Shown: positions 5,067 to 17,385 of the stretch, piece after piece
Layout of the letters: each line of letters opens with the position of its first letter
How positions within the stretch are numbered: position 1 is the first letter of the stretch
Program-made: the position numbers and the translations under genes
The notes under the pieces: model-generated
The model's database searches: none
Told to the model about the DNA's origin: nothing
What the model saw: only the letters and a program-made list of their open reading frames with translations
DNA from: Deltaproteobacteria bacterium
Lineage (GTDB): Bacteria; Desulfobacterota; BSN033; UBA1163
Assembly: GCA_016874935.1 (NCBI GenBank)
Contig: VGSS01000014.1
Coordinates: forward strand, 1 to 38,242
Direction: 5' to 3'
DNA: 38,242 nucleotides

Positions 5067-6407
5067 TCAAGAAAAGAACGGAACCTGTCCTCTTCCCAGT
5101 CCTTTGCCGCCCATCTTTGAAAACTGTTTCATCATCTTTCGGGCCTGGGCATACTGTTTTAAGAGCCGGTTGACTTCCTGAACGCTTGTCCCGCTTCCCG
5201 CTGCAATCCTCAATCGCCGGCTCCCGTTGATGATCGTGAAATTGGCCCTCTCCTTGAACGTCATCGAGTTGATGATGGCCTCCACTCTCCCCAGCTCCCT
5301 ATCATCCACCTGGAGGCCTCCCATCCCTTTCATCTTCTTCGGAAGCCCGGGGATCATATTCAGAATCGATTCGAGCGATCCCATCTTTCGGACTTGCTGG
5401 AGCTGGTCCCGGAAATCCTCTAGCGTGAAAGAATCCTTTCGGATCTTCTTCTCTAATTCTCTGACCTTCTTCTCATCAAAGGTGGCCTCTGCCTTCTCGA
5501 TCAGGGTCAGGACATCGCCCATGCCCAGAATTCTTGAAACCATCCGTTCGGGATGGAAGACTTCGAGGGCATCCAACTTCTCCCCTACGCCGATGAATTT
5601 AATGGGCCTCTGCGTCACCGCTTTGATCGAAAGGGCCGCTCCTCCCCGAGCGTCCCCGTCCATTTTGGTCAGGATGATTCCATCGATGCCCAGCCGCTCA
5701 TTAAAACTCTTTGCGACATTGACCGCATCCTGCCCGGTCATAGCGTCAGCGACAAAAAGAACCTCTCTCGGTTTGATCTGTGTTTTGATTTCTCTAAGTT
5801 CAAGCATCAACGCCTCATCGATATGAAGCCTTCCAGCCGTATCGATGAGCATCAGATCGTATCCCCCTTTCAGGGCCGTATCACTTGCTTTTAGGCAGAT
5901 ATCGAGCGGCACCTGCGAGGGCCCGGGCCGGTAGAAATCGACCTTCAGATCTTCCCCTAACTTTTGCAACTGCTCGATGGCGGCCGGCCGGTAGACATCC
6001 GCTGGAACGAGGTAGGGTCGCTTCTTCATTCCCTGGAAGTGGCGGGCCAGTTTGGCCGCAGTGGTCGTTTTTCCACATCCGTGCAGGCCGACCAGCATGA
6101 TCGGAACCGGAGGGCTCCCCGAAAGCTGAACCCTCTGCTCCTGGCCGCCCATCAGTGAAGTCATCTCCTCCTTCACGATCTTGATCAGTTGCTGTGCAGG
6201 GGTAAGGCTTGCCATCACTTCCTGGCCGATGGCTCTCCCCTGGACGGACTGGATAAAATCCTTCACCACCTTGAAATTGACATCGGCTTCGAGGAGGGCC
6301 ACCCTCACCTCTTTGAGGGCCTCCTGAATGTTCTGCTCCGTTAACTTCCCATGACCTCGGAGTTTCTTAAAAACACCCTCTAATTTGGATGAAAGATTGT
6401 CAAACAT
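5067..6407 (-). CDS. ffh: signal recognition particle protein Ffh
   Basis: The SRP54 GTPase that binds signal sequences with 4.5S RNA and delivers ribosomes to FtsY. At 446 residues it has the N domain (1-90), the G domain with P-loop GLHGCGKTTTAAKLA at about 107, DTAGRLHID, TKMDGDARGGAAL, and the C-terminal M domain from about 300 with MIPGLPKKMKGMG and the RNA-binding SGTSVQEVNRLLKQYAQA segment. It is the first gene of the ribosomal operon here. No 4.5S RNA gene was recognised nearby. Confidence 0.98.
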   Translation of the reverse strand: MFDNLSSKLEGVFKKLRGHGKLTEQNIQEALKEVRVALLEADVNFKVVKDFIQSVQGRAIGQEVMASLTPAQQLIKIVKEEMTSLMGGQEQRVQLSGSPPVPIMLVGLHGCGKTTTAAKLARHFQGMKKRPYLVPADVYRPAAIEQLQKLGEDLKVDFYRPGPSQVPLDICLKASDTALKGGYDLMLIDTAGRLHIDEALMLELREIKTQIKPREVLFVADAMTGQDAVNVAKSFNERLGIDGIILTKMDGDARGGAALSIKAVTQRPIKFIGVGEKLDALEVFHPERMVSRILGMGDVLTLIEKAEATFDEKKVRELEKKIRKDSFTLEDFRDQLQQVRKMGSLESILNMIPGLPKKMKGMGGLQVDDRELGRVEAIINSMTFKERANFTIINGSRRLRIAAGSGTSVQEVNRLLKQYAQARKMMKQFSKMGGKGLGRGQVPFFS

Positions 6408-6760: not shown

Positions 6761-6844
6761 AATCTTTAATCTTATATCAGAAGAGGTCTGGCAGGCTTCA
6801 ATGATTAAAAGGAGAAAGATCAGACCGAGGAGCCATCTTATCAT
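6752..6844 (-). pseudogene. short lipoprotein N-terminus, probably truncated gene
   Basis: The ATG overlaps the stop codon of the upstream bamD-lptA gene (ATGA arrangement), implying translational coupling. The 30-residue product begins MIRWLLGLIFLLLIIEACQT, a basic start, a hydrophobic core and a Cys in a lipobox-like position (Ile-Glu-Ala-Cys). It is followed by only about a dozen residues before a stop that lies in the outer arm of the long palindrome. I read this as the stub of an outer-membrane lipoprotein gene that was interrupted or eroded; a genuine mini-lipoprotein is the alternative. Confidence 0.5.
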
Positions 6845-8556
6845 TTCAGCTTTTCAAATTCCCCACCGGGAAGAACCCTCACCTTCCCTCTTCCTCCCGG
6901 CCCTCCTTTTACCTCTATACGATTCTTCGCAATATCGAAAATGATCTCATCTCCGGAGACCAAATTGTCGCCTTCCAACACTTTTGGGTTGCCGGTCAAA
7001 ACCACCCTTTGATCCCGATTATAAAAGACCGCCTTCTGACAATTGGCGACACGAAGTCCTTGCTGAATCTTCACATTCCCTCCGGCCACCACCTTCTCAA
7101 TCCCCTTGCCATCTTCAAAAACCAAGGCCTCGAGAGAATCGGAATAGATGACCATATCCTTCTGCCTAGCCATCACATTCCCCCTGAAGACGATCAGATT
7201 CTCTTTGGAAAAAGTCTCCACCCTGTCCGAAGTGATGTCTATCGGCTCGCCTGTGTCCCCCAATTTGATCTCCTTTGGCTCCGCAGGGGTCTCCTTTTTC
7301 AAAACCTCCCCCTCCTTCGTTGCCGGGGGCGGTAATGCTGCAATCTTTTTCTCCTTCTCTTTTGCTTTTTCCACCTCTTTCTTCTGAGGTTTTTCCTCCC
7401 TCACCTTTTCCTTTTCCTTCGGTGCCTCCCTGATCTCAGGTGCTGCAGGAAGAGGCGGCAGCCCCGCCATCCGCTTTTCATCCTCTCGTTTCGCCTCGAC
7501 CTTTAATTCTTCCTTTGGAGGAGGCAAGGGGAAGGGGGGCGGAGTTACTTTCCTGGTCTCTTCTTTTGGAACCGCCGGCTCGTCCGGCTTTTCAGCGGGA
7601 GGAGGGACAACCTTTTTCTCTTCCCTCCTAAACTCGATCTTATCATCTTTCTTATCATCTTTCAGTAAAACCGGGCGTCTTCTCTCTTCATCGAATTTGG
7701 CCAGAGCAACTGTTTCAGCCTCTCCCTCTTTCGCATCTGCTTTCTTCTTTGGTTCTTTGGCTTTTGCCTTGCGAATGACGGTTTTTTCCTTTATGCCCTG
7801 ATCCAGGATCGATTTGGCTTCCCTGTAATGGGAACTCTTCGGATATTCGTTGACAATCCTCGCAAAGGCCTCTCTGGCCTTCTCCCATTGATCGAGCTCG
7901 AGGCAGCTCTTCCCTAAAAGATAAAGCGCCTTATCCTCTTCAGCCCTCTTCGGGAACTTCTCCAGTAATCCTTCGAACCTGGAGGCGGCCGCCAGATATT
8001 TTCCCTTTTTGTAATAAAAATTTCCGATATAGAACTCATGGTCAGCCAACTGCTTCTTGCAAATCTCAATCTTTTCTTTAGCCTTGTCGGTAAAGAAGCT
8101 CTGAGGAGTGCTACTCACCAGGTATTCAAAATTGGAGAGGGCCTTTTGGGTGGAGGTCTGGTCCCGGTCGTGGGTGCGCATCTGGCTGAAATGGGCCATT
8201 CCGATCTGATATTGAACATAAGGGATTTCTTCATGGGTGGGACGGGTCTTCTTGAACTCCTCATAGGCTGCAATGGCTTCCACATAATCCTTCTTAAAAA
8301 AGTGACAATCTCCAACCTTCACCTCTGCCCACTGGGTATGAGGCGGGCTATCCGGAAAGTTGGACTTGATCTGTTCAAAAATCTTTAAGGCTTCGGAATA
8401 GTCCCTCTTATTGAACCGCTCCAATCCCTGCCGGTAGAGGACCTCCGGATCTCCCTTGATCGTTTTGATATCCTTTCCTTTCCCGGCGCATCCGTTCAAA
8501 AGGGAGAAGAGAACGAAAAGGAGAAGGAATGTTTGAATAACAGGATTCTTTTTCAT
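6841..8556 (-). CDS. BamD-LptA fusion lipoprotein
   Basis: A 571-residue lipoprotein: signal peptide with lipobox Leu-Asn-Gly-Cys (Cys at about 23), then a BamD/YfiO-type TPR domain (about 35-260; repeated patterns such as LERFNKRDYSEALKIFEQI and YPKSSHYREAKSILDQ). A low-complexity linker rich in Pro, Lys and Glu follows (about 260-435), then an LptA/OstA beta-jellyroll domain (about 436-565; PIDITSDRVETF, VFRGNVMARQKDMVIYSDSL, GGNVKIQQ, VVLTGNPKV). BamD acts in outer-membrane protein assembly; LptA forms the periplasmic bridge for LPS. Having both in one chain is unusual and suggests a tethered LptA-like module at the outer membrane. It has its own promoter and is followed by a coupled lipoprotein stub. 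Confidence 0.88.
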   Translation of the reverse strand: MKKNPVIQTFLLLFVLFSLLNGCAGKGKDIKTIKGDPEVLYRQGLERFNKRDYSEALKIFEQIKSNFPDSPPHTQWAEVKVGDCHFFKKDYVEAIAAYEEFKKTRPTHEEIPYVQYQIGMAHFSQMRTHDRDQTSTQKALSNFEYLVSSTPQSFFTDKAKEKIEICKKQLADHEFYIGNFYYKKGKYLAAASRFEGLLEKFPKRAEEDKALYLLGKSCLELDQWEKAREAFARIVNEYPKSSHYREAKSILDQGIKEKTVIRKAKAKEPKKKADAKEGEAETVALAKFDEERRRPVLLKDDKKDDKIEFRREEKKVVPPPAEKPDEPAVPKEETRKVTPPPFPLPPPKEELKVEAKREDEKRMAGLPPLPAAPEIREAPKEKEKVREEKPQKKEVEKAKEKEKKIAALPPPATKEGEVLKKETPAEPKEIKLGDTGEPIDITSDRVETFSKENLIVFRGNVMARQKDMVIYSDSLEALVFEDGKGIEKVVAGGNVKIQQGLRVANCQKAVFYNRDQRVVLTGNPKVLEGDNLVSGDEIIFDIAKNRIEVKGGPGGRGKVRVLPGGEFEKLK

Positions 8557-9227: not shown

Positions 9228-11216
9228 TTACCCATCCAGAATCTCGCGGACCTTTCTCGCAAGTTCCATGGGCGAGAAGGGTTTCTGTAAAAAAGGTGTT
9301 CCGGGTTTGAGGGAGGCCTGATAGATCATGATCCCATCGGTGTATCCAGAGATAAAAAGGATTCTGGTATCAGGATGAAGGAGTTTGAACTGTTCAACCA
9401 GTTCTTTTCCTCCCATTTGTGGCATCACCAGATCGGTGAGCACGAGGTGTATCTTCTTATGGGTGGGCTCACGGGCCAATCTCATTGCTTCATCCCCATT
9501 GGCCGCCTCCAATACCGTGTAACCCTGATCACGCAAAACTCTGGCTGCGAGGCTCCGTAACGATTCATCATCTTCCACCAAAAGGATGGTTTCGTCTCCT
9601 TGCGGGAAATCGCCTGTCTCCTCCTGGCGGGAGAGGTCATCTGCTTCTTCATCCACACATGGCAAATAGATTTTAAATGTCGTCCCCTGCTTGGGTTCAC
9701 TGTAGACCCAGACATAACCTCCGCTCTGCTTCACAATGCCATAAACCATAGAAAGCCCAAGCCCTGTCCCCCGCCCCTTTCCCTTGGTCGTAAAGAATGG
9801 ATCAAAGATCCTCTCTTTGACTTCCGGCGACATACCGCATCCCGTATCGGTCACGGAGAGCAGGATATAACGGCCCAGTATCACATTGAAATGAGATTGA
9901 GCATAGGTTTCATCCAGTTCAACATTGTGAGTTTCAATGATGAGTTTCCCGCCATTGGGCATAGCATCTCTCGCATTGACGACCAGATTGAGGATGGCCT
10001 GTTCGATCTGGCCTGGGTCGGTCTTCACCCTTCCCAGATCTTCAGCCGGGCGGGTAATCAGTTCAATATCCTCTCCAATGATCCGGCCCAACATCTTTCC
10101 CAGACCCTTCAGGAGTTGGTTCAGGTCGAGCACTTTCATATCCATCACCTGGCGCCGGCTGAAGGCCAGGAGTCGTTGGGTTAGCTCCGCTGCCCGATCC
10201 GTCGTTCTCCTGATTTCTTCTAAATTCCTTCTTAATGGATGATCTTCGCTGATTTCAAGCAGGGAGAGCTGGCTATAACCACTGAGGATGGTGAAGAGGT
10301 TATTTAAATCATGAGCGATGCCGCCTGCGAGCTGGCCCACCGTCTCCATTTTCTGGGATTGAAGAAACTGCGTTTCCAGTTGCTTCCATGCGGTGGTATC
10401 CTCGATCATGTGGATGGTGTATGGAGGGACCTCTCTCAACCCGGTCGCGAGAGAGACATTCAGGCGAGCCCAGACGACTTCTCCATCTTTCCGAATGTAA
10501 CGTTTCTCTATTTGATAATGTTCTTTTTCGCCCGCAATAAGTTTTTTGAGAAGATCCAGATCCTGGGAGGCATCCTCCGGGTGAGCGAATTCATTCAAAA
10601 CTTTGCCGTAAAGTTCTTCCACCCTGTAGCCTAACATTTTTTGAAGGGCCTGATTGCTCTCCATGACCCGCCCATCTGTATTGACGAGAGCGATGCCGAT
10701 GGCCATCCCTTCAAAAATGGTTTGAAATTTCGCCTCGCTCTTCTGAATCGCTTCTTTGATCCGCATAAGTTCTGAGATATCAAACATGAAACCCCTGATG
10801 AAACAGGGATGGCCGGATTCATCCCTCACCACTGTCCCTTCATCGCGCACCCAGACGATATGACCATCACGGGCGATCAAGCGATATTCGGATCGAAACG
10901 GTTGGCCATTATTATGGCTCTTGTAAAATTCCATTAAAATACGCTTTCTGTCATCAGGATAGATCTGCCTGAACCAGAGCTGGGGATCGGTTAACCATTC
11001 AGAGGACGGAAAACCCAGCATGGTCTCTATCTGGGGACTGATGTAGAGTCGACCTCCCGTCTCATCAAGGGGGGTGATGTAAGTGACTGCTGGAATCTGT
11101 TCCAACAGAGTCCGGTAATCGATTCCAGAATTTGGAGGAAGTCCTTTCTCCTCTTCCAATTCTTCTTTCTTCTTTACAAAACGATCCCTTTTCCCTGCGC
11201 CCTGTTGTAGCTTCAT
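9228..11216 (-). CDS. PAS-PAS hybrid sensor histidine kinase with receiver domain
   Basis: A 662-residue cytoplasmic protein with no membrane segment. Order: PAS (about 30-155, ending in the PAC-like [10 protein letters not shown]), second PAS (160-280), HisKA with His at about 302 in [20 protein letters not shown], HATPase with LNLVNARDAM and the [13 protein letters not shown] box, then a C-terminal receiver domain with phospho-acceptor Asp at about 595 in [15 protein letters not shown]. It lies 24 bp after a single-domain response regulator and is probably co-transcribed from a sigma54-type promoter. The usual role is a phosphorelay that passes phosphate from its own receiver domain to another protein. 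Its signal is unknown. Confidence 0.93.
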
Positions 11217-11240: not shown

Positions 11241-11606
11241 TTAAGAGAGGATCTGTGAGGCAATCCTCTCCACCTCAACGATATTGAGAGGCTTCGTCAG
11301 GAAATCAATGGCTCCCAGGGATTTCGCTTCTCTCTCTATCTCATCCCGTTGTGTGGCCGTGATGATGACGACCTCCACTTGCTTCTGATCTTTCCGAAGC
11401 TTTTTCAGCACATCCATTCCGTCCAGGCCGGGCATTTTGATATCTAAAAACACCAGACGAGGCGGTTTAGTTTCGATAATCCTCAGGGCCTCATAACCGT
11501 TATCTGTCATGACGAGATTGTAGCGGTCGCCCAGCAGGACTTCGAAGGAGTCCAAAATCCCCTGATCATCATCCACCACTAAAATTCGTTTTGAAAGGTG
11601 TTCCAT
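11241..11606 (-). CDS. single-domain response regulator (CheY-like receiver)
   Basis: A 121-residue receiver domain with no output domain. The acidic pocket is VVDDDQ, the phospho-acceptor Asp55 lies in LVFLDIKMPGLDG, and the conserved Thr and Lys are in VVIITAT and FLTKPLN. The start at 11606 (MEHLSKRILVV) is set by GAGGAGGGG just upstream; a TTG five codons earlier is less likely. It precedes the hybrid kinase by 24 bp. A -24/-12 promoter sequence and a palindrome lie upstream, so it is likely a target of the NtrC-type activator at 16003-17385. Confidence 0.92.
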   Translation of the reverse strand: MEHLSKRILVVDDDQGILDSFEVLLGDRYNLVMTDNGYEALRIIETKPPRLVFLDIKMPGLDGMDVLKKLRKDQKQVEVVIITATQRDEIEREAKSLGAIDFLTKPLNIVEVERIASQILS

Positions 11607-11704
11607 TTTTCCCCTCCTCAATTAAAAACATCTTACTTTTCCCCTTTCCCTAACCTGGTTCGGGTTGAGGATAGGAAGATTCATTTCTCCCTATCAAGGC
11701 ATTT

Positions 11705-11720
11705 AGCAAATAGAATGCCA
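11705..11720 (-). promoter_or_regulatory. sigma54 (-24/-12) promoter for the response regulator-hybrid kinase operon
   Basis: The minus strand reads TGGCATTCTATTTGCT, which fits the sigma54 consensus TGGCACG-N4-TTGCW with exact spacing. It lies about 100 nt before the response-regulator start and about 97 bp downstream of the 18-bp palindrome at 11817-11834. Seven of the first seven bases and the TTGCT half are identical to the second such site at 15749-15764. Confidence 0.72.
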
Positions 11721-11816
11721 AAGGACTTTCAAACTCACCAAAAATAAATCACCTTAAATTTTAATGGGTTATAAGCAGGTAAGAAAATGAAGATACTAAG
11801 GGAAGGGCGTCTGGAC

Positions 11817-11834
11817 TGCCAACGATTGTTGGCA
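11817..11834. promoter_or_regulatory. palindromic activator-site candidate (copy A)
   Basis: TGCCAAC-GATT-GTTGGCA, a perfect 7-bp dyad with a 4-bp spacer. It begins 4 bp from the end of the histidine kinase gene and sits upstream of the sigma54-like promoter at 11705-11720. It has no T-tract, so it is not an intrinsic terminator. The same dyad occurs at 15873-15890 and, with one mismatch, at 15951-15974. Confidence 0.62.
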
Positions 11835-11837
11835 ATC

Positions 11838-13670
11838 TTAACTTTTGATTACAGGTAACATCAACACAAAAGTGGTCCCCGCTCCTTTTTCACTCATCAC
11901 CTCAATCGTCCCCCGATGGTCTTCAATAATCTTATGGGTGAGGGCCATTCCGAGGCCAACGCCACGGTCCTTGGTTGTAAAGAAGGGGTTAAAGAGGTTC
12001 TTCGATGTCTCCTCATCCATTCCGACTCCTGTATCCCTGAAGATGATTTGGAGCCCGGAGGAAGGTGAATCATGCTTGGAAGAGATGATCAGTGATCCGC
12101 CCTCCGGCATCGCCTGGATCGCATTGATGGCCAGGTTGGAGAAGGCGCGATAAAGCGTCTCTGAGTTTCCTTCGACAGGAGGAATGGTTCTGTCCAGATG
12201 ATCTTCGAAACGGATCTGTTTCTTTTCCATCTCTTCACCATGAAGATCAATCACCTGAAGGATGAGATAGTTCACATCCAGGGCCACGAAGGGGTGCACT
12301 CTTCTCCTGGTCAATTCCAGTAGATCCTCTACCAATTGATTGATCCGGTCGATTTCTCTTGGAACCGTAGAATTAAATTTCTCCATAAAGGAGGGATTTT
12401 CAAGCTTTCTGGGAAGGAGCTGGACAAAGGTCTTGATTGCGGAGAGAGGGTTCTTCACCTCATGGGCTAACCCTGCCGAGAGGGTCCCGAGGGCGGCCAG
12501 CCGGTCTGCCTGTCGGAGTTTCTCCTCGAGGGCCTTGATCCCGGTGATATCCTGAAAGAGCACCAGGGCGCCGAGCTTCTTTCCTTTTCCATCGGTAAGC
12601 AAGGAAGTGCCGACAGTCAACCAGAGGCTTCCCTCATCTTTTTTCAACTCCATTTCCGAACGAAATACTCCTTCTTCACGGGATAGTGTCTCGATCATCA
12701 TTCGATAAAGAGGATGATCTTCACTCAAAACTCGTTCCAACGGAAGGCCCACAATTTTCCCGCTTCTCTTTCCCAGGATGCGCTCAGCCATTTCATTGAG
12801 AGTAACGATCTTTTCTTCAAGATCGATGGTAATCAGCCCGTTGGTCATCGAGGACAGCACATTATCGGTATACGCCTTCAGGGATGTAATCTCACGAAGG
12901 CGGTTCTCCAGTTCGGTTTGATGGAGGCGGATTTGCTGGATCATATGGTTGAAGTTTTTCCCCAGTTCTTCGATTTCATCTCCGGTATGAATGTCTATGA
13001 CCTGGTCGAGATCTCCTTTTGCAGCGGCGATGGTTGTTCCCACCAGATTGGAGATGGGTTGGGTGATTCGCCTGGCGAAGAAAATCGATCCAAGAATACC
13101 AAGGGCAATGGCGAAACCACCCAGAAAGAGGAGATTGAGACGTGTCTTTAAAATCTGACTGGACATCCCCTCCAACGAGAGACCAATCCGGATGGTTCCC
13201 CATTTTTCCTGTGACTCTTTGATGTAAACCGGGATGGAGATATCCAGGACCCTGACTTCTTTTTCTCCATAGAGAATCGGTTGAATCAATGGGGCCCTGG
13301 CTCGGGTCGCTTTCTGACTCACTTCGTCCGTGAGGATCATCCCCTGTTTCTCATCATGCTGACTGTAGGCGGCCACCTTGTCCTCTTTATCGTGGATGAT
13401 GACATAGAGGACATCCTTCTCAAGGACAACTCTCTCCGCATTCTGCTTGAGGACAATATAGTTATAAGTGAGAAGAGCATTCGTGCTCACCGCGGCTAAA
13501 TGCCCGGCGATGGTGATGCCCCGTTTCCGGGCTTCCTCATGAATCGTTTCAGACTGACGTTTTTCGACCAGAATGATGACCAGGGCCATGACGAGCAGGA
13601 GGATAATGGTGGAGTAAAAGATGAGTCTTGTCCGGAGACGAATGGATCGGGAATCTTTTCTGAAATCCAT
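11838..13670 (-). CDS. membrane sensor histidine kinase (TM-HAMP-PAS-HisKA-HATPase)
   Basis: About 610 residues. TM1 at about 16-36, a periplasmic sensor region at about 40-178, TM2 at about 179-199, HAMP at about 200-255, PAS at about 260-385, HisKA with the phospho-acceptor His at about 403 in LGTLSAGLAHEVKNPLSAI, and an HATPase ending in NPFFTTKDRGVGLGMALTHK. This architecture is typical of kinases that partner NtrC-type sigma54 activators (AtoS/ZraS-like). The ATG shares one base with the stop codon of the solute-binding protein upstream (TGATG), so the two are translationally coupled. It most likely phosphorylates the activator at 16003-17385. Confidence 0.94.
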   Translation of the reverse strand: MDFRKDSRSIRLRTRLIFYSTIILLLVMALVIILVEKRQSETIHEEARKRGITIAGHLAAVSTNALLTYNYIVLKQNAERVVLEKDVLYVIIHDKEDKVAAYSQHDEKQGMILTDEVSQKATRARAPLIQPILYGEKEVRVLDISIPVYIKESQEKWGTIRIGLSLEGMSSQILKTRLNLLFLGGFAIALGILGSIFFARRITQPISNLVGTTIAAAKGDLDQVIDIHTGDEIEELGKNFNHMIQQIRLHQTELENRLREITSLKAYTDNVLSSMTNGLITIDLEEKIVTLNEMAERILGKRSGKIVGLPLERVLSEDHPLYRMMIETLSREEGVFRSEMELKKDEGSLWLTVGTSLLTDGKGKKLGALVLFQDITGIKALEEKLRQADRLAALGTLSAGLAHEVKNPLSAIKTFVQLLPRKLENPSFMEKFNSTVPREIDRINQLVEDLLELTRRRVHPFVALDVNYLILQVIDLHGEEMEKKQIRFEDHLDRTIPPVEGNSETLYRAFSNLAINAIQAMPEGGSLIISSKHDSPSSGLQIIFRDTGVGMDEETSKNLFNPFFTTKDRGVGLGMALTHKIIEDHRGTIEVMSEKGAGTTFVLMLPVIKS

Positions 13671-15292
13671 CACTTCTTCAGCCAGATCTTCTTCATCGGG
13701 ATATAAGGACCGCCAAGGGCGCTCACCTCAACGCCCCTGACATAGGGCTGATAGACCATCTGGAAGAGATGGTTCACCATCGGCACAATGGGTGCATCAT
13801 CGAGAATCATCTCCTCGATCTTTCGATACATCTCCATCCGCTTCAGATAATCCCTCTCTGCCCGTGCTCGATCCAGCAGCCGATCCACCTCCGGATTATG
13901 GTAATTTGTGTAGTTATATCTTGACTTTGAATGAAAGAGGGTCCAAAGAAAATTATCTGGGTCCGGAAAATCAGCATACCAGGCATACATGAACATTGGT
14001 GCCCTTTTTGACGAAAGGATTTCCTGAAACTTTGGCCATTGGGTTTCATACTTAATATTTAATTTGATTCCGGTCTCAGAGAGATAGGTTTTCACCATCT
14101 CCAGTTCCTTCACCGCCAATTCAGCTTTAGCAGCCGACCAGAATTCAATTGGAGGTAACCCTTTCCCTTCTGGATAGCCCGCTTCCCTTAAGAGTTGTTT
14201 TGCCTTTTGGGGTTGATATCCAAAACTTCCTTTGATCGGAGTATAGCCTGGCATTCCTAATGGAATAATACGATCTGTAAGATGGGCCATCCTTTTTAGA
14301 ATATCCCGGCCAATCAATTCTTTTGGAACAGAAGAATTGATTGCCTTCCTAATTTTTTCTATTTTTAGGGGCCCAATCTGCGTATTAAGACCGTAAAAGC
14401 GAAGGGACAGGATGGGTTTTTGGAGAAAGATATATTGTTTGGATTTTGAAATTTCCTCAACATCTCTGAAAGGAATGAACGAATCTTCTAATTCTCCATT
14501 TTTAAAAAGAATGAGTATTTCTTCACGGGGGCCACCATGGAAGATCTTAAAAATGACTTTATCGAGATAGGGCCTTCCTTCAAAATAGTCGGGATTGGCC
14601 TCAAGGACGATTTCCTCTCCTTCTTTCATCGAAACGAATTTAAATGGCCCTGTCCCCACCGGTGATTGCCCAAAAGTGGGTTCTAATTTCTCAACCTCTT
14701 CCTTGGGAACCACTTTGGCTCCTTTCATTGCGAGGATACTAATGAACGGAGCATAAGGTTCTGAAAGAGTAATCTTAAGGGTTAATTTATCCTGGGCGAT
14801 TAAACCTTTTACTTCCTTAGCTTTTCTTTCCATGAACTCCTTAGCCCCAAGGATTCTGGTGAAAAAATCAGAAGAGCTCGATTTAATGTCAGGATCGAGT
14901 ATACGAGTGAATGAATAAACAAAATCTGTGGAAGTAACTTCTCTTCCATTGTGGAATTTGACCCCTTCTTTTAAATAAAAGGTATAGGTGAGACCATCAG
15001 GAGAAACTTTCCAGGACCTGGCTACGGCGGGAATGACATTCAAATCTTTATCGAACTGAACCAGGCCATCAAAGAGCTGTTGGATCACCGTAACAGCATG
15101 GATGTCTACAGATAATGCTGGATCAAGGGTTTTGGGGTTAAACTCGAGAGGTCTGCGGTAAGTTCCTCTCGACTTCTCAATTCCTGGTTTATCTTCCGTA
15201 GAAAAACCACCTCGCTCAAAGAGCAGGGTAAAACAAAATAGGAACGCAAATACAAATATGAAAACTTTAAATGTCATTGGTAAGGGATTCAT
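13670..15292 (-). CDS. oligopeptide/dipeptide-type extracellular solute-binding protein (SBP_bac_5)
   Basis: 540 residues with an N-terminal export signal (MTFKVFIFVFAFLFCFTLLF) and no lipobox Cys after it, so probably a free or N-terminally anchored periplasmic protein. The family 5 signature region FNPKTLDPALSVDIHAVTVIQQLFDGLVQFD and the WKVSPDGLTYTFYLKEGVKF block are clear, with MYAWYADFPDPDNFLWTLFHS near the C-terminus. Family members bind peptides or other ligands for ABC importers. Here no permease or ATPase is adjacent; instead the gene is fused by a stop/start overlap to a histidine kinase. That suggests a sensing role, presenting a bound ligand to the kinase. It is transcribed from its own sigma70-type promoter. 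Confidence 0.93.
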   Translation of the reverse strand: MNPLPMTFKVFIFVFAFLFCFTLLFERGGFSTEDKPGIEKSRGTYRRPLEFNPKTLDPALSVDIHAVTVIQQLFDGLVQFDKDLNVIPAVARSWKVSPDGLTYTFYLKEGVKFHNGREVTSTDFVYSFTRILDPDIKSSSSDFFTRILGAKEFMERKAKEVKGLIAQDKLTLKITLSEPYAPFISILAMKGAKVVPKEEVEKLEPTFGQSPVGTGPFKFVSMKEGEEIVLEANPDYFEGRPYLDKVIFKIFHGGPREEILILFKNGELEDSFIPFRDVEEISKSKQYIFLQKPILSLRFYGLNTQIGPLKIEKIRKAINSSVPKELIGRDILKRMAHLTDRIIPLGMPGYTPIKGSFGYQPQKAKQLLREAGYPEGKGLPPIEFWSAAKAELAVKELEMVKTYLSETGIKLNIKYETQWPKFQEILSSKRAPMFMYAWYADFPDPDNFLWTLFHSKSRYNYTNYHNPEVDRLLDRARAERDYLKRMEMYRKIEEMILDDAPIVPMVNHLFQMVYQPYVRGVEVSALGGPYIPMKKIWLKK

Positions 15293-15318
15293 AAATTTAA
15301 AACGGGATTTTAAATATA

Positions 15319-15347
15319 TATATAGGAAGAAATAGGAAGGATGTCAA
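15319..15347 (-). promoter_or_regulatory. sigma70-type promoter of the binding protein-kinase operon
   Basis: Minus strand: TTGACA (15342-15347), a 17-nt spacer, TATATA (15319-15324). It lies 27 bp before the start codon at 15292. Nearly consensus, so the sensor pair is probably made constitutively. Confidence 0.7.
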
Positions 15348-15357
15348 AGGTTATTAA

Positions 15358-15394
15358 AAAAAGAAAGCACAACCTATGGTTGTGCTTTCTTTTT
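15358..15394. terminator. intrinsic terminator (bidirectional)
   Basis: A perfect stem with AAGAAAGCACAACC and GGTTGTGCTTTCTT arms and a 3-nt loop, flanked by A-runs on one side and T-runs on the other. On the minus strand it lies 200 bp downstream of the small peptide gene and just before the promoter of the solute-binding protein, isolating the two transcripts. Confidence 0.8.
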
Positions 15395-15593
15395 GATCCT
15401 TAAAATAAGAAGAGGTGTAACACTTTAGCGGTTTGAAAAGGGTTTCATAAAATCCCTCCCTTGCCTCCCTTTGCCAAAGGGAGGAGAAATACTTCCCCCT
15501 TTGTAAAAGGGGGATTGAGGGGGATTTGGGTTATTTCGATTTCTTGATCAGACCTCTTTTTCAAAGAACTAAAGTATTAAGAAGAAGTTAAAA
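15395..15593. other. intergenic spacer with G/C-tract hairpin repeats
   Basis: Contains two small hairpins (CCTCCCTTT/AAAGGGAGG near 15464-15484 and CCCCCTTT/AAAGGGGG near 15494-15512). They resemble the hairpin near 2952 and are common dispersed spacer repeats. No gene is seen. Confidence 0.4.
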
Positions 15594-15683
15594 TTAGTAC
15601 CCGCTGCCATCTGCCAGAACAGGCAGCACATAGGCCATCACTGACAATGCAATGATGACCAACTCGATTGCGATCTTCTTCAT
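15594..15683 (-). CDS. 29-residue exported peptide, candidate signal peptide pheromone
   Basis: The start is decided by a strong GGAGGTGAT 5 nt before the ATG. The 29-residue product has a basic N-terminus (MKKIAIE), a hydrophobic core to about residue 21 and a possible signal-peptidase site after VLA at about residue 24, leaving the pentapeptide DGSGY. The transcript appears self-contained: a -24/-12 promoter 66 nt upstream and an intrinsic terminator downstream. It lies between the NtrC-type activator gene and the peptide-type solute-binding protein gene. I infer an autoinduced signal peptide sensed by the binding protein-kinase pair. An uncleaved small membrane protein is the main alternative. 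Confidence 0.62.
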   Translation of the reverse strand: MKKIAIELVIIALSVMAYVLPVLADGSGY

Positions 15684-15748
15684 GTTATCACCTCCTTTTT
15701 TATGGTTTTAGGTTGAGAGGAATGAAACGAGTTAACACAGATGATAAG

Positions 15749-15764
15749 AGCAATCCGAATGCCA
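15749..15764 (-). promoter_or_regulatory. sigma54 (-24/-12) promoter for the 29-residue peptide
   Basis: The minus strand reads TGGCATTCGGATTGCT, matching TGGCACG-N4-TTGCW with exact spacing. The predicted transcription start is near 15737, giving a leader of about 54 nt before the strong ribosome binding site. Two palindromes (15864-15899 and 15951-15974) lie 100-210 bp upstream, the usual range for a bacterial enhancer. Confidence 0.75.
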
Positions 15765-15863
15765 GAACGAAAAGAGAACCCTCCCCTTTGCGGTGGACGA
15801 TTAAGTGTGTGTTCTCAAAGAGATTTTTAGAAGGTCCATTTTTCGAAAGGAAAAAGCGCCCTT

Positions 15864-15899
15864 CCATTTCACTGCCAACAGTTGTTGGCAGTGAAATGG
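15864..15899. promoter_or_regulatory. palindromic activator-site candidate (copy B)
   Basis: A perfect 16-bp inverted repeat (CCATTTCACTGCCAAC, 4-nt centre, then its complement) containing the core TGCCAAC-AGTT-GTTGGCA at 15873-15890. It starts about 100 bp upstream of the sigma54-like promoter of the peptide gene. There is no T-tract on either side. Confidence 0.62.
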
Positions 15900-15950
15900 G
15901 AAATGGATGGAGAAATAGATAGAACCCTTTGATTTAATAAGGAGAGTTTA

Positions 15951-15974
15951 AATTGCAAACGATTGTTGGCAATT
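15951..15974. promoter_or_regulatory. palindromic activator-site candidate (copy C)
   Basis: AATTGCAAAC-GATT-GTTGGCAATT, the same dyad as copies A and B with one mismatch in the left arm. It lies 28 bp past the stop codon of the NtrC-type gene and upstream of copy B. A weak T-run follows on the plus side, so a terminator function cannot be excluded for this copy. Confidence 0.5.
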
Positions 15975-16002
15975 TTAAAAAAACATTACAGTCAATCGGG
16001 CA

Positions 16003-17385
16003 TCAGCCTGCCTGTTTCATCCGGATGCCGAACTGTCTTGCTTTTTGCATGAGGTAGTTTCGGCTAATTTTCAGAATCTTAGCGGCCTCTGTCTGGTTCC
16101 ATCGGGTGGCTTCAAGGACATTGAGGATCAACCTTTTTTCAAACTCTTCTCTCGTATTGATCAGCCCTGCCTTTGAGAGCTTATCATCTTTTGTGCTTCT
16201 GCCTGATGACATCAAAATCTCAAGGGGGATGTCCTCCAGTTCGATCGGATCGTTGCCTTTGGACAGAACGATGATCCTTTCGATAAGATTTTCTAATTCC
16301 CGGATGTTGCCCGGCCAAGGATACCGGGAAAGGGCATCCAATGTCTTTTCAGAGAATCCCGGAATCTTCTTATTAAAGGCAATGTCAAATTTGTTGAGAA
16401 AGTGTTTTGCAAGAATGGGAATATCTTCCCTCCTCTCCCGAAGGGGAGGGATCGAGATGGGGACCACATTGAGCCGGAAGTAGAGGTCCTGCCGAAATTT
16501 CTCCTTAAAAACAGCGTCTTCCAGATTAATATTGGTCGCCGAGATGACCCGGATATCGACCTTGATGGGTTTGTTCGATCCGATCCGTTCGATCTCCCTC
16601 TCCTGAAGGACCCGGAGGAGTTTCGCCTGGAGATCAGATCTTAACGCTGAGATTTCGTCAAGAAAGAGGGTTCCCCCATTGGCATATTCAAATTTCCCGA
16701 TGGCTCGTGTATGAGCCCCCGTAAAGGCCCCCCTTTCGTGGCCGAACATCTCGCTTTCCATCAGTTCAGGGGGAATGGCGGCACAGTTGATGGCCACAAA
16801 AGGTCCGTTCTTTCTACTCCCCTGGCGATGGATGGCACGGGCAATCAGTTCCTTACCTGTCCCGCTCTCGCCGATGATTAAAATGTTGGTGGAGGTATAA
16901 GCCACCTTTTTGATGAGGTCAAAGATCTCTAACATCTTCTTATTCTGGCTGATGATCTGGTCGAATCCCCTAACCGTTTCGACCTCCCTCCGGAGAAAAT
17001 CCAATTCTCTGTGGAGCTTTTGTTTGCTGATGGCCCGATGGACAGTCGAGAGGATATCCTCAGGTTCATAAGGCTTGGTGATATAGTCGTAGGCGCCTGA
17101 TCGGATGGCATCCACTGCCTTTCGAGCCAGATTGAGCGCAGAGACCATAATGACGTCCAACGCTTCGTCCTGCTCTCTGATCCTGCGAAGGACCTCCAGT
17201 CCATCCATATCGGGCATGTTCACATCCAAGAGGATGAGATCAACGGACTCTCTCTGAAGAACCTTCAGGGCCTCTGGACCGCTTTCTGCATTGAGAACGC
17301 GGTAGTCATCTTCAAGGATGACTTCGAGAGACTGCCTGGCTCCTAATTCATCGTCCACAACTAAAATCGTCGGTTTTATCTCCAT
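16003..17385 (-). CDS. NtrC-type sigma54-dependent response regulator
   Basis: 460 residues: receiver domain (1-120) with phospho-acceptor Asp54 in LILLDVNMPDMDG, AAA+ domain with Walker A GESGTGKELIARAIH, the sigma54-contacting loop GAFTGA in HERGAFTGAHTRAIG and GGTLFLDEIS, then a Fis-type helix-turn-helix (EATRWNQTEAAKILKISRNY). It activates transcription from -24/-12 promoters after binding enhancer dyads. Both such promoters and matching dyads are found just downstream in this locus. The kinase at 11838-13670 is the likely partner. No promoter was fixed for the gene itself. Confidence 0.96.
   Translation of the reverse strand: MEIKPTILVVDDELGARQSLEVILEDDYRVLNAESGPEALKVLQRESVDLILLDVNMPDMDGLEVLRRIREQDEALDVIMVSALNLARKAVDAIRSGAYDYITKPYEPEDILSTVHRAISKQKLHRELDFLRREVETVRGFDQIISQNKKMLEIFDLIKKVAYTSTNILIIGESGTGKELIARAIHRQGSRKNGPFVAINCAAIPPELMESEMFGHERGAFTGAHTRAIGKFEYANGGTLFLDEISALRSDLQAKLLRVLQEREIERIGSNKPIKVDIRVISATNINLEDAVFKEKFRQDLYFRLNVVPISIPPLRERREDIPILAKHFLNKFDIAFNKKIPGFSEKTLDALSRYPWPGNIRELENLIERIIVLSKGNDPIELEDIPLEILMSSGRSTKDDKLSKAGLINTREEFEKRLILNVLEATRWNQTEAAKILKISRNYLMQKARQFGIRMKQAG

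Follow-up and report, generated by a model that had tools for sequence, protein, structure and literature searches.

A candidate peptide-autoinducer two-component system built on a family 5 solute-binding protein in diderm bacteria

Introduction

Can a diderm bacterium use as a signal a peptide that it encodes beside its own sensor system? The question is raised by a locus in a 38,242-nucleotide stretch of Deltaproteobacteria bacterium DNA (contig VGSS01000014.1, assembly GCA_016874935.1; hereafter the window), in which a tiny 29-codon gene (PEP) lies between the genes for an NtrC-type activator and a family 5 solute-binding protein (SBP). The available text of two reviews credits diderm signaling to homoserine lactones, autoinducer-2 (AI-2), and other small molecules and places peptides mainly in Gram-positive bacteria (PMC8895600, PMC5388746), with the Escherichia coli death factor (EDF) as an exception (PMC5388746).

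All genes of the locus are on the minus strand and follow one another in transcription as activator, PEP, SBP, membrane histidine kinase (HK), receiver-only protein (RR), and PAS hybrid kinase (HYB). Domain scans confirmed this gene set, order, and strand, which an earlier note on the DNA had described.

16003..17385, minus strand: NtrC/AtoC-like sigma-54-dependent response regulator (Pfam Response_reg, Sigma54_activat, AAA_lid_14, HTH_8)
15594..15683, minus strand: PEP, 29 amino acids, MKKIAIELVIIALSVMAYVLPVLADGSGY (open reading frame, homologues, purifying selection)
13670..15292, minus strand: SBP, family 5, oligopeptide (SBP_bac_5, 306.9 bits against a cut-off of 32.4)
11838..13673, minus strand: HK, membrane histidine kinase (sCache_3_2, HAMP, PAS, HisKA, HATPase_c)
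11241..11621, minus strand: RR, receiver-only response regulator (Pfam domain scan)
9228..11216, minus strand: HYB, hybrid histidine kinase (PAS, PAS, HK, REC)

We propose that the locus probably encodes a diderm peptide-autoinducer two-component system, in which the C-terminal tail of the PEP product would be the ligand of the SBP–HK pair and the activator would drive PEP. This proposal rests on observed gene conservation and promoter/operator architecture, both of which are firm, and on the observed tail pattern and the matching of tail and receptor alleles in the window's family. Cleavage of the tail, its diffusion between cells, its binding, coupling to the kinase, pairing of activator and operator, and a positive loop would complete the system. 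No description of such a system was found in titles and abstract openings of the literature, a coverage outside which most subscription journals and all preprints fall.

Composition of the locus

The activator combines an AAA+ sigma-54 interaction domain, a Fis-type helix-turn-helix, and a receiver, the composition of NtrC-type proteins, and its translation contains GAFTGA, which we take to be the NtrC-type motif. The sequence AAGGAGGTGATAAC stands directly in front of the 29-residue open reading frame (ORF) at 15594–15683 (minus strand), and the start of HK overlaps the stop of SBP by 4 nt. The locus architecture, with a secreted-looking peptide gene beside its own sensor system, would fit peptide quorum sensing in general. 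An AgrB-like processing protease, as in agr, does not adjoin PEP, whose neighbors are the activator and SBP.

The permease and ATPase genes of an ABC importer were absent among the neighboring ORFs read or scanned, in agreement with the earlier description of SBP as lacking transporter genes. One other family 5 SBP was found in the 90.9%-complete assembly, on C84, where two permease-like ORFs follow it (translations read).

Conservation of the PEP gene

On sequence grounds, PEP is a real gene. Its ratio of nonsynonymous to synonymous changes (pN/pS) over eight homologues was 0.22, indicating purifying selection. A structured RNA in place of PEP was considered and rejected, since Rfam gave no match in the window at the gathering threshold and since the reading frame shows this selection. 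Pfam and NCBIfam contained no convincing family for the PEPs tried (those of the window, L117, L114, and three NC10 types), the best E-values for L117, L114, and the NC10 types being at least 0.026.

PEP was counted in 67 genomes, comprising nine of the window's family (truncated in G001), 17 of the class of G378, 39 of NC10 (the phylum of L047's genome; 40 loci, two of them in G534), and two single metagenome-assembled genomes (MAGs), Deltaproteobacteria MAG S146_80 (L181) and Nitrospinota MAG J063 (L045). Among the named host records are those of Deltaproteobacteria/Thermodesulfobacteriota, of NC10, and of one Nitrospinota MAG. A search of 148 relatives returned PEP at E ≤1e-3 in nine genomes, all of the window's family; three further matches (E 0.5 to 1.1) were taken as noise. 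Among the 17 genomes of this family, nine carried PEP and eight carried an SBP with ≥60% identity. All eight genomes with such an SBP had PEP, and in G001 the contig ends inside PEP. The remaining eight had neither, G015 among them carrying an SBP of 31% identity. Across 395 genomes of the phylum, PEP (profile A3) was present in 13, the SBP profile (E ≤1e-110) in 14, and both in 12, the exceptions being G001 with PEP alone and G047 and G178 with SBP alone. The class of G378 had PEP in 17 of 55 genomes. In NC10, the SBP profile matched at 54 places in 50 of 95 genomes, and PEP was found at 40 of the 52 places examined. Nine of the 12 places without PEP carry SBPs of 36–38% identity for which neither kinase nor activator was found (one of them, L251, has 77 bases upstream only), and the other three are close to the start of a contig (L221, L241, and L214, which has 410 bases upstream).

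A joint count was made over 89 loci, 87 of them with SBP (L027 and L150 have none), using an activator window of 3.5 kb upstream. PEP was present in 55 of 55 loci with an activator within this distance of SBP (54 by a small-ORF filter and L207 separately), in 11 of 16 loci with a kinase and no activator upstream (L070, L087, L214, L221, and L241 being without it), and in one of 16 loci with neither (L234, where the activator is just past 3.5 kb). The filter gave three matches in 1.59 million base-strand positions elsewhere in the same loci; its match at L045 was a chance ORF, and the real PEP of that locus was found separately. Thirteen loci had been found via PEP itself, which is a selection effect. 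Among loci found via SBP or family membership, PEP was present in 8/8 in the window's family and in all 35 NC10 loci with an activator (34 by the filter plus L207). The small ORF is thus kept in homologous loci, a check that the earlier note had named, in 8/8 family genomes as well as in the 55 activator loci.

Several loci carry PEP in tandem: three identical copies in L117, two identical copies of three in L119 (where one stretch reads N), three copies in L150, and two differing copies each in L118, L120, and L152. G439 (Nitrospinota MAG J063) encodes seven SBPs of this subfamily, with PEP found only at L045; by eye, L183 shows a permease-like stretch in front. Related SBPs without PEP occur in L115 and L116; the sequence ahead of them (L115 1–330 translated, L116 by eye) reads like what we take to be the end of an HD-GYP protein, and in this layout the same receptor may feed another output. 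L028 (G005:C232) contains at 711–1868 a paralogous precursor (MKKIAIELLIIAATVVASVAPVLACYGDW..., 57 amino acids) just before a radical SAM/SPASM protein, a placement in which this leader may also serve a pathway for modified peptides. This PEP–radical SAM link is based on one 6-kb contig of one MAG, with no SBP or kinase match, and is only noted here.

A short tail with variable ends

The part of PEP that would act as the signal is the following.

15597..15611, minus strand: codons of the predicted signal pentapeptide DGSGY, after VLA (tail pattern in 66 loci; predicted cleavage)

With one copy scored per locus and L045 and L027 left out, all 66 tails have 4–7 residues after the last conserved Ala and masses of 358–582 Da, and 53 of them are distinct. 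Gly makes up their interior, together with some Ser, Ala, and Asp and no other residue, and the first and last residues vary. Tails of the window's family have five residues and end in Tyr or Trp, those in the class of G378 have six residues in the form X-GGGG-Z, and NC10 tails start with Asp or Glu. The usual limit of porins is 600 Da, and tails below this mass could enter or leave the periplasm without a transporter. We infer that the tail is cut off PEP and leaves the cell.

The C-terminus of the small ORF, which the earlier note had asked about, does not drift freely, as all 66 tails are short and Gly-rich and the last residue tracks SBP (see below). The reading of the peptide as the ligand is supported, and the conditions that the earlier note had named as refuting did not refute it; DGSGY is this genome's version only.

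Matching of tail and receptor

The part of SBP that matches the tail is one segment.

13988..14521, minus strand: SBP residues 258–435, the segment matching PEP's last residue (22 fixed Tyr-type/Trp-type differences)

In the window's family, the last tail residue (Tyr, n = 4; Trp, n = 4) matches the allele of SBP 258–435 in 8/8 loci. All 22 fixed differences fall within this segment and none at residues 1–257 or 436–540, the segment borders having been set from these differences themselves. The SBP tree splits the Tyr from the Trp loci (100/100), whereas the activator tree requires three label changes, none of its 200 bootstrap trees (0%) holds the split, and L022 (Trp) and L023 (Tyr) join at 100/99. 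No fixed Tyr/Trp difference is found upstream of PEP through codon 20, and one is found in the 260 bases after PEP. L021 and L026 are 93% identical upstream of PEP and 54% identical downstream, where L026 seems to carry an insert. These patterns suggest a break in or just after the peptide leader. Because the ~1 kb from the tail to the SBP segment shows almost no Tyr/Trp pattern, linkage alone explains the matching poorly, and selection for matching explains it well.

Weaker covariation was seen in other families. Of 5040 label permutations, those reaching the observed contrast numbered 129 in f1, the family where the segment was defined, 120 in f65 (seven loci), and 292 in f92 (eight loci), the latter two being tested with the borders unchanged and L161 being dropped. 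The regression form of the test gave 245 (f1), 252 (f65), and 413 (f92) of 10000; the pooled regression gave 0 of 10000 but ignores kinship. L114 and L156 share the tail QGGGGA; their SBPs agree at 94% of positions within the segment and at 83% ahead of it.

Covariation in NC10 was assessed with 38 loci, L161, L181, L254, and L255 being dropped for SBP extracts of <450 residues. Arg390 occurs with Asp, Ser, or Glu tails in 12/12 loci, and Leu, Phe, or Ala at this position with F/Y/W/M tails in 8/10, compared with 3/28 for other residues (Fisher 1.3e-4). The top mutual-information site is position 318 (z 10), where Leu318 is associated with acidic tails (Fisher 1.3e-6); this position is Ile in all eight window-family SBPs. 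Sites with z >3 number 7/213 at residues 45–257, 12/178 at 258–435, and 0/105 at 436–540. The case for tail–SBP matching is strong for the window's family; for the other groups it is suggestive.

SBP as a putative peptide receptor

In a profile alignment, D441 of SBP aligns with D436 of DppA and is invariant in 14/14 aligned sequences. According to the available text of PMC12136057, DppA D436 binds the amino group of the ligand and R383 its carboxylate, and that of PMC3295651 lists Asp408 among the DppA residues contacting the ligand ends; we take Asp408 to be D436 in mature numbering. R383 lies in a 4-residue DppA stretch without counterpart in SBP, so that the carboxylate-binding Arg is missing here. 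Its site corresponds approximately to SBP residues 386–392 and adjoins the Tyr/Trp sites 388, 392, and 394 and position 390. The AlphaFold2 model of SBP (predicted local distance difference test score 82.3) has peptide-binding SBPs as its nearest folds, including OppA with a PhrE-derived pentapeptide (8are) and PrgZ (4faj).

Promoters and operators

The regulatory elements found in the window are as follows.

15954..15971: operator palindrome 1 (TGCAAACGATTGTTGGCA), presumed activator site (palindrome search)
15864..15899: operator palindrome 2, 17-nt perfect arms around TGCCAACAGTTGTTGGCA (palindrome/hairpin search)
15749..15764, minus strand: sigma-54 -24/-12 site TGGCATTCGGATTGCT of PEP (exact TGGCAY-N5-TTGCW)
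15358..15394: terminator-like hairpin with 17-nt perfect arms between PEP and SBP (hairpin search)
15319..15347, minus strand: sigma-70-like site TTGACA-17-TATA before the SBP–HK operon (8/8 family loci)
11817..11834: operator palindrome 3 (TGCCAACGATTGTTGGCA) (palindrome search)
11705..11720, minus strand: second sigma-54 -24/-12 site TGGCATTCTATTTGCT, before RR (exact TGGCAY-N5-TTGCW)

The two -24/-12 promoters of the earlier note were recovered as the only exact matches to TGGCAY-N5-TTGCW in the whole window. With up to one mismatch, three matches were found against 2.2 expected; the pattern alone is therefore weak, and the case rests on site position and conservation. We scored the 180 bases before PEP, requiring the GG and GC cores and leaving out L045 and loci with <60 bases upstream. 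The best score was at least 8 of 11 in 64/64 loci and at least 9 in 63/64, a value reached by ~3% of shuffled stretches. The NC10 form is mostly TGGC-N7-TTGCT. The promoter before RR is present in 6/6 window-family loci reaching that far (exact in the window, L020, L021, L023, and L025; one mismatch in L024) and in 6/6 f65 loci reaching RR (L114, L156, L157, L158, L160, and L162).

The palindrome TGCCAAC-NN-TTGTTGGCA, which the earlier note had not named, has copies at 11817, 15873, and 15954, two before the PEP site and one before the RR site. In its 20-base form with up to three mismatches, it gave six strand matches in the window against 0.01 expected. In other clades, 19/67 loci have TGCACA-N5/6-TGTGCA in the 450 bases upstream of PEP (22 copies in all), and the 663 kb of remaining sequence of the same loci contains none. 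We presume that these palindromes are operators bound by the NtrC-type activator.

From the hairpin and the TTGACA-17-TATA site between PEP and SBP, PEP looks like a separate short sigma-54 transcript, and SBP–HK expression looks constitutive by promoter type. The second hexamer of the sigma-70-like site has one or two mismatches across the eight family loci, and hairpins with T runs after PEP also occur in other loci of the family (by eye). Between PEP and the terminator, the window carries at 15445–15564 a repeat-like insert of the CCCTCCCTTTGGCAAAGGGAGG / CCCCCTTTTACAAAGGGGG type that is absent from L020 and L021 (by eye).

A fourth operator copy lies elsewhere in the same genome (L029 5528–5545), with a one-mismatch -24/-12 site at 5397–5412, ~116 bases away (L029 5397–5545 = G000:C7:41396–41544). 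A counterpart in G009 matches the stretch at 85% identity over 350 bases, the similarity extends far downstream of the promoter, and no Rfam match was obtained for the stretch at the gathering threshold. The long G009-conserved stretch has no clear ORF and may be a third target, perhaps an RNA. As the target could not be named, this copy was left out of the model. Near it, at L029 2455–4360, a caspase-domain (Peptidase_C14) protein lies beside a weakly scoring endonuclease/exonuclease/phosphatase-like protein. Elsewhere in the window, one protein (6841–8556, minus strand) joins YfiO/TPR repeats and an LptA/LptD_N-like domain.

A model of the system

Taken together, architecture, conservation, and tail–SBP matching support the view that PEP encodes the ligand of the SBP–kinase pair. 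PEP would make an exported precursor, from which proteolysis after the conserved Ala would free the Gly-rich tail of 4–7 residues (DGSGY in the window); at 358–582 Da, the tail would pass outer-membrane porins without an exporter. SBP, expressed from its own constitutive-looking promoter, would capture the tail in the periplasm, with Asp441 holding its free amino end and residues of 258–435 reading its last residue. The tail-loaded SBP would act on the sCache kinase, which would control the NtrC-type activator, and the activator, on its palindromic operators, would drive the sigma-54 promoters of PEP and of the RR/HYB operon.

Weighing the model against alternatives

Several observations weigh against this model. 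The Tyr/Trp case comprises eight family loci only, for which the activator tree implies about three label changes. The kinase tree is unresolved, 10% of its bootstrap trees holding the Tyr/Trp split. For the parts of SBP that flank the segment, this split is not rejected by approximately unbiased tests (p 0.315 and p 0.25). In NC10, the whole-segment test was not significant (830 of 10000 permutations; close pairs, 1222 of 10000), and covarying sites overlap the Tyr/Trp sites at three positions (p 0.06). Position 390 was singled out after the ranked list had been viewed, because of where it falls in the alignment with DppA; a test restricted to Arg390 and acidic tails gave p 0.087. Because the tree of flanking columns leaves only four independent pairs (2.8 concordant, 0.1 opposite, median p 0.25), the pattern at this position may reflect kinship. 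The strict second promoter before RR was found in 0/6 f92 loci with RR (L117, L118, L151, L153, L154, and L159). Codons 1–24 of PEP are more conserved (pN 0.065) than the tail codons (0.265), and the conserved hydrophobic part may itself act. The NC10 tail lies some 17–20 residues behind the hydrophobic stretch, which by textbook rules is too far for one cut by signal peptidase I, so that another protease would be needed. Tails starting with Cys, present in six loci, make a lipid-anchored form possible.

The strong conservation of the hydrophobic part and its distance from the NC10 tail would also suit an MgrB-like feedback, in which the uncut PEP product stays in the inner membrane and binds the kinase or SBP of its own cell as a brake or amplifier. 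The available text of PMC2789325 provides a precedent in MgrB, a membrane peptide of 47 residues that belongs to the PhoP regulon and inhibits PhoQ. We consider this explanation unlikely, since in the window's family it is the SBP alleles that the last tail residue matches, with no such split in the kinase tree (itself unresolved), since the tandem identical copies of L117 and L119 fit the dosage of a shed product, and since a self-contained feedback needs no family 5 SBP. Detection would be periplasmic whether the peptide came from the same cell or from a neighbor, and SBP and kinase look constitutive by promoter; both points would suit a peptide that is released into the periplasm, is read by the SBP of the cell that made it, and reports export or protease capacity of the envelope rather than cell density. 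A signal that must be distinguished from those of neighbors is expected to vary with its receptor in an allele-like way, an internal reporter less so, and we rate this explanation as somewhat less probable still.

That SBP–HK senses environmental peptides or other metabolites, PEP being an unrelated effector of the regulon, seems very improbable. Family 5 SBPs do bind many ligands, as titles of structures indicate, and the SBP–kinase pairs without PEP in L070 and L087, which have no activator upstream, agree with such nutrient sensing and likewise count against the autoinducer model; however, PEP is present in 55/55 activator–SBP loci, and in the window's family the alleles of tail and SBP go together. 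The peptide-autoinducer model accordingly remains the one we favor.

Relation to known systems

In agr, peptide and receptor occur as matched alleles. Like the system proposed here, agr and ComD/ComE of Gram-positive bacteria (see PMC8895600) combine a ribosomally made peptide with a histidine kinase and with a response regulator driving the peptide genes. They differ from it in that the hosts here are diderm, a periplasmic SBP is the likely receptor, the output is of sigma-54/NtrC type, and no exporter or processing gene was seen in the locus. LuxP–LuxQ likewise pairs a binding protein with a membrane kinase, and its downstream LuxO is, by model name, a sigma-54 regulator; LuxP belongs to another SBP family, whereas the SBP here is an SBP_bac_5 protein. 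In the available text of PMC13220807, the periplasmic binding protein presents AI-2 to the membrane histidine kinase; AI-2 is not a gene-encoded peptide, as the ligand here would be. The system thus appears intermediate between Gram-positive peptide two-component systems and LuxP–LuxQ, without corresponding fully to either.

The pheromone-binding family 5 SBPs PrgZ (4faj) and Bacillus OppA (8are, holding the PhrE-derived pentapeptide) share the fold of SBP. Both serve importers, whereas here no permease lies beside SBP and the kinase gene is coupled to it. For EDF, we know of no dedicated precursor gene beside an SBP–kinase pair. The available text of PMC5388746 describes EDF, alike in being a short linear peptide proposed as a diderm signal, as acting through mazEF. 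AtoS–AtoC (NCBIfam PRK11360 and PRK11361) are the best-scoring curated models for kinase and regulator, but scores of 365 (curated cut-off 646) and 469.6 (curated cut-off 714) fall short, so that the proteins are not members. MgrB–PhoQ has, to our knowledge, no SBP and no variable tail. The similarity is that the regulon of the kinase includes a tiny protein which may touch that kinase (PMC2789325, available text).

Implications

Beyond this locus, we lean, with more caution, toward a widespread diderm peptide quorum sensing, in which self-encoded X-Gly(n)-Z tails below 600 Da would travel via porins and be read by SBPs with sCache kinases, and in which matched peptide–receptor alleles (pherotypes) would be swapped, the recombination points lying within the SBP gene and between leader and tail of the peptide. 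If the model is true, it would explain the existence of a family 5 SBP that has no transporter beside it, and, given the matched alleles, a swap of one SBP segment would test receptor specificity. Uncultured anaerobes and NC10 would gain a testable language in which each signal is readable from the genome, and synthetic peptides of 4–7 residues could be added directly to enrichments.

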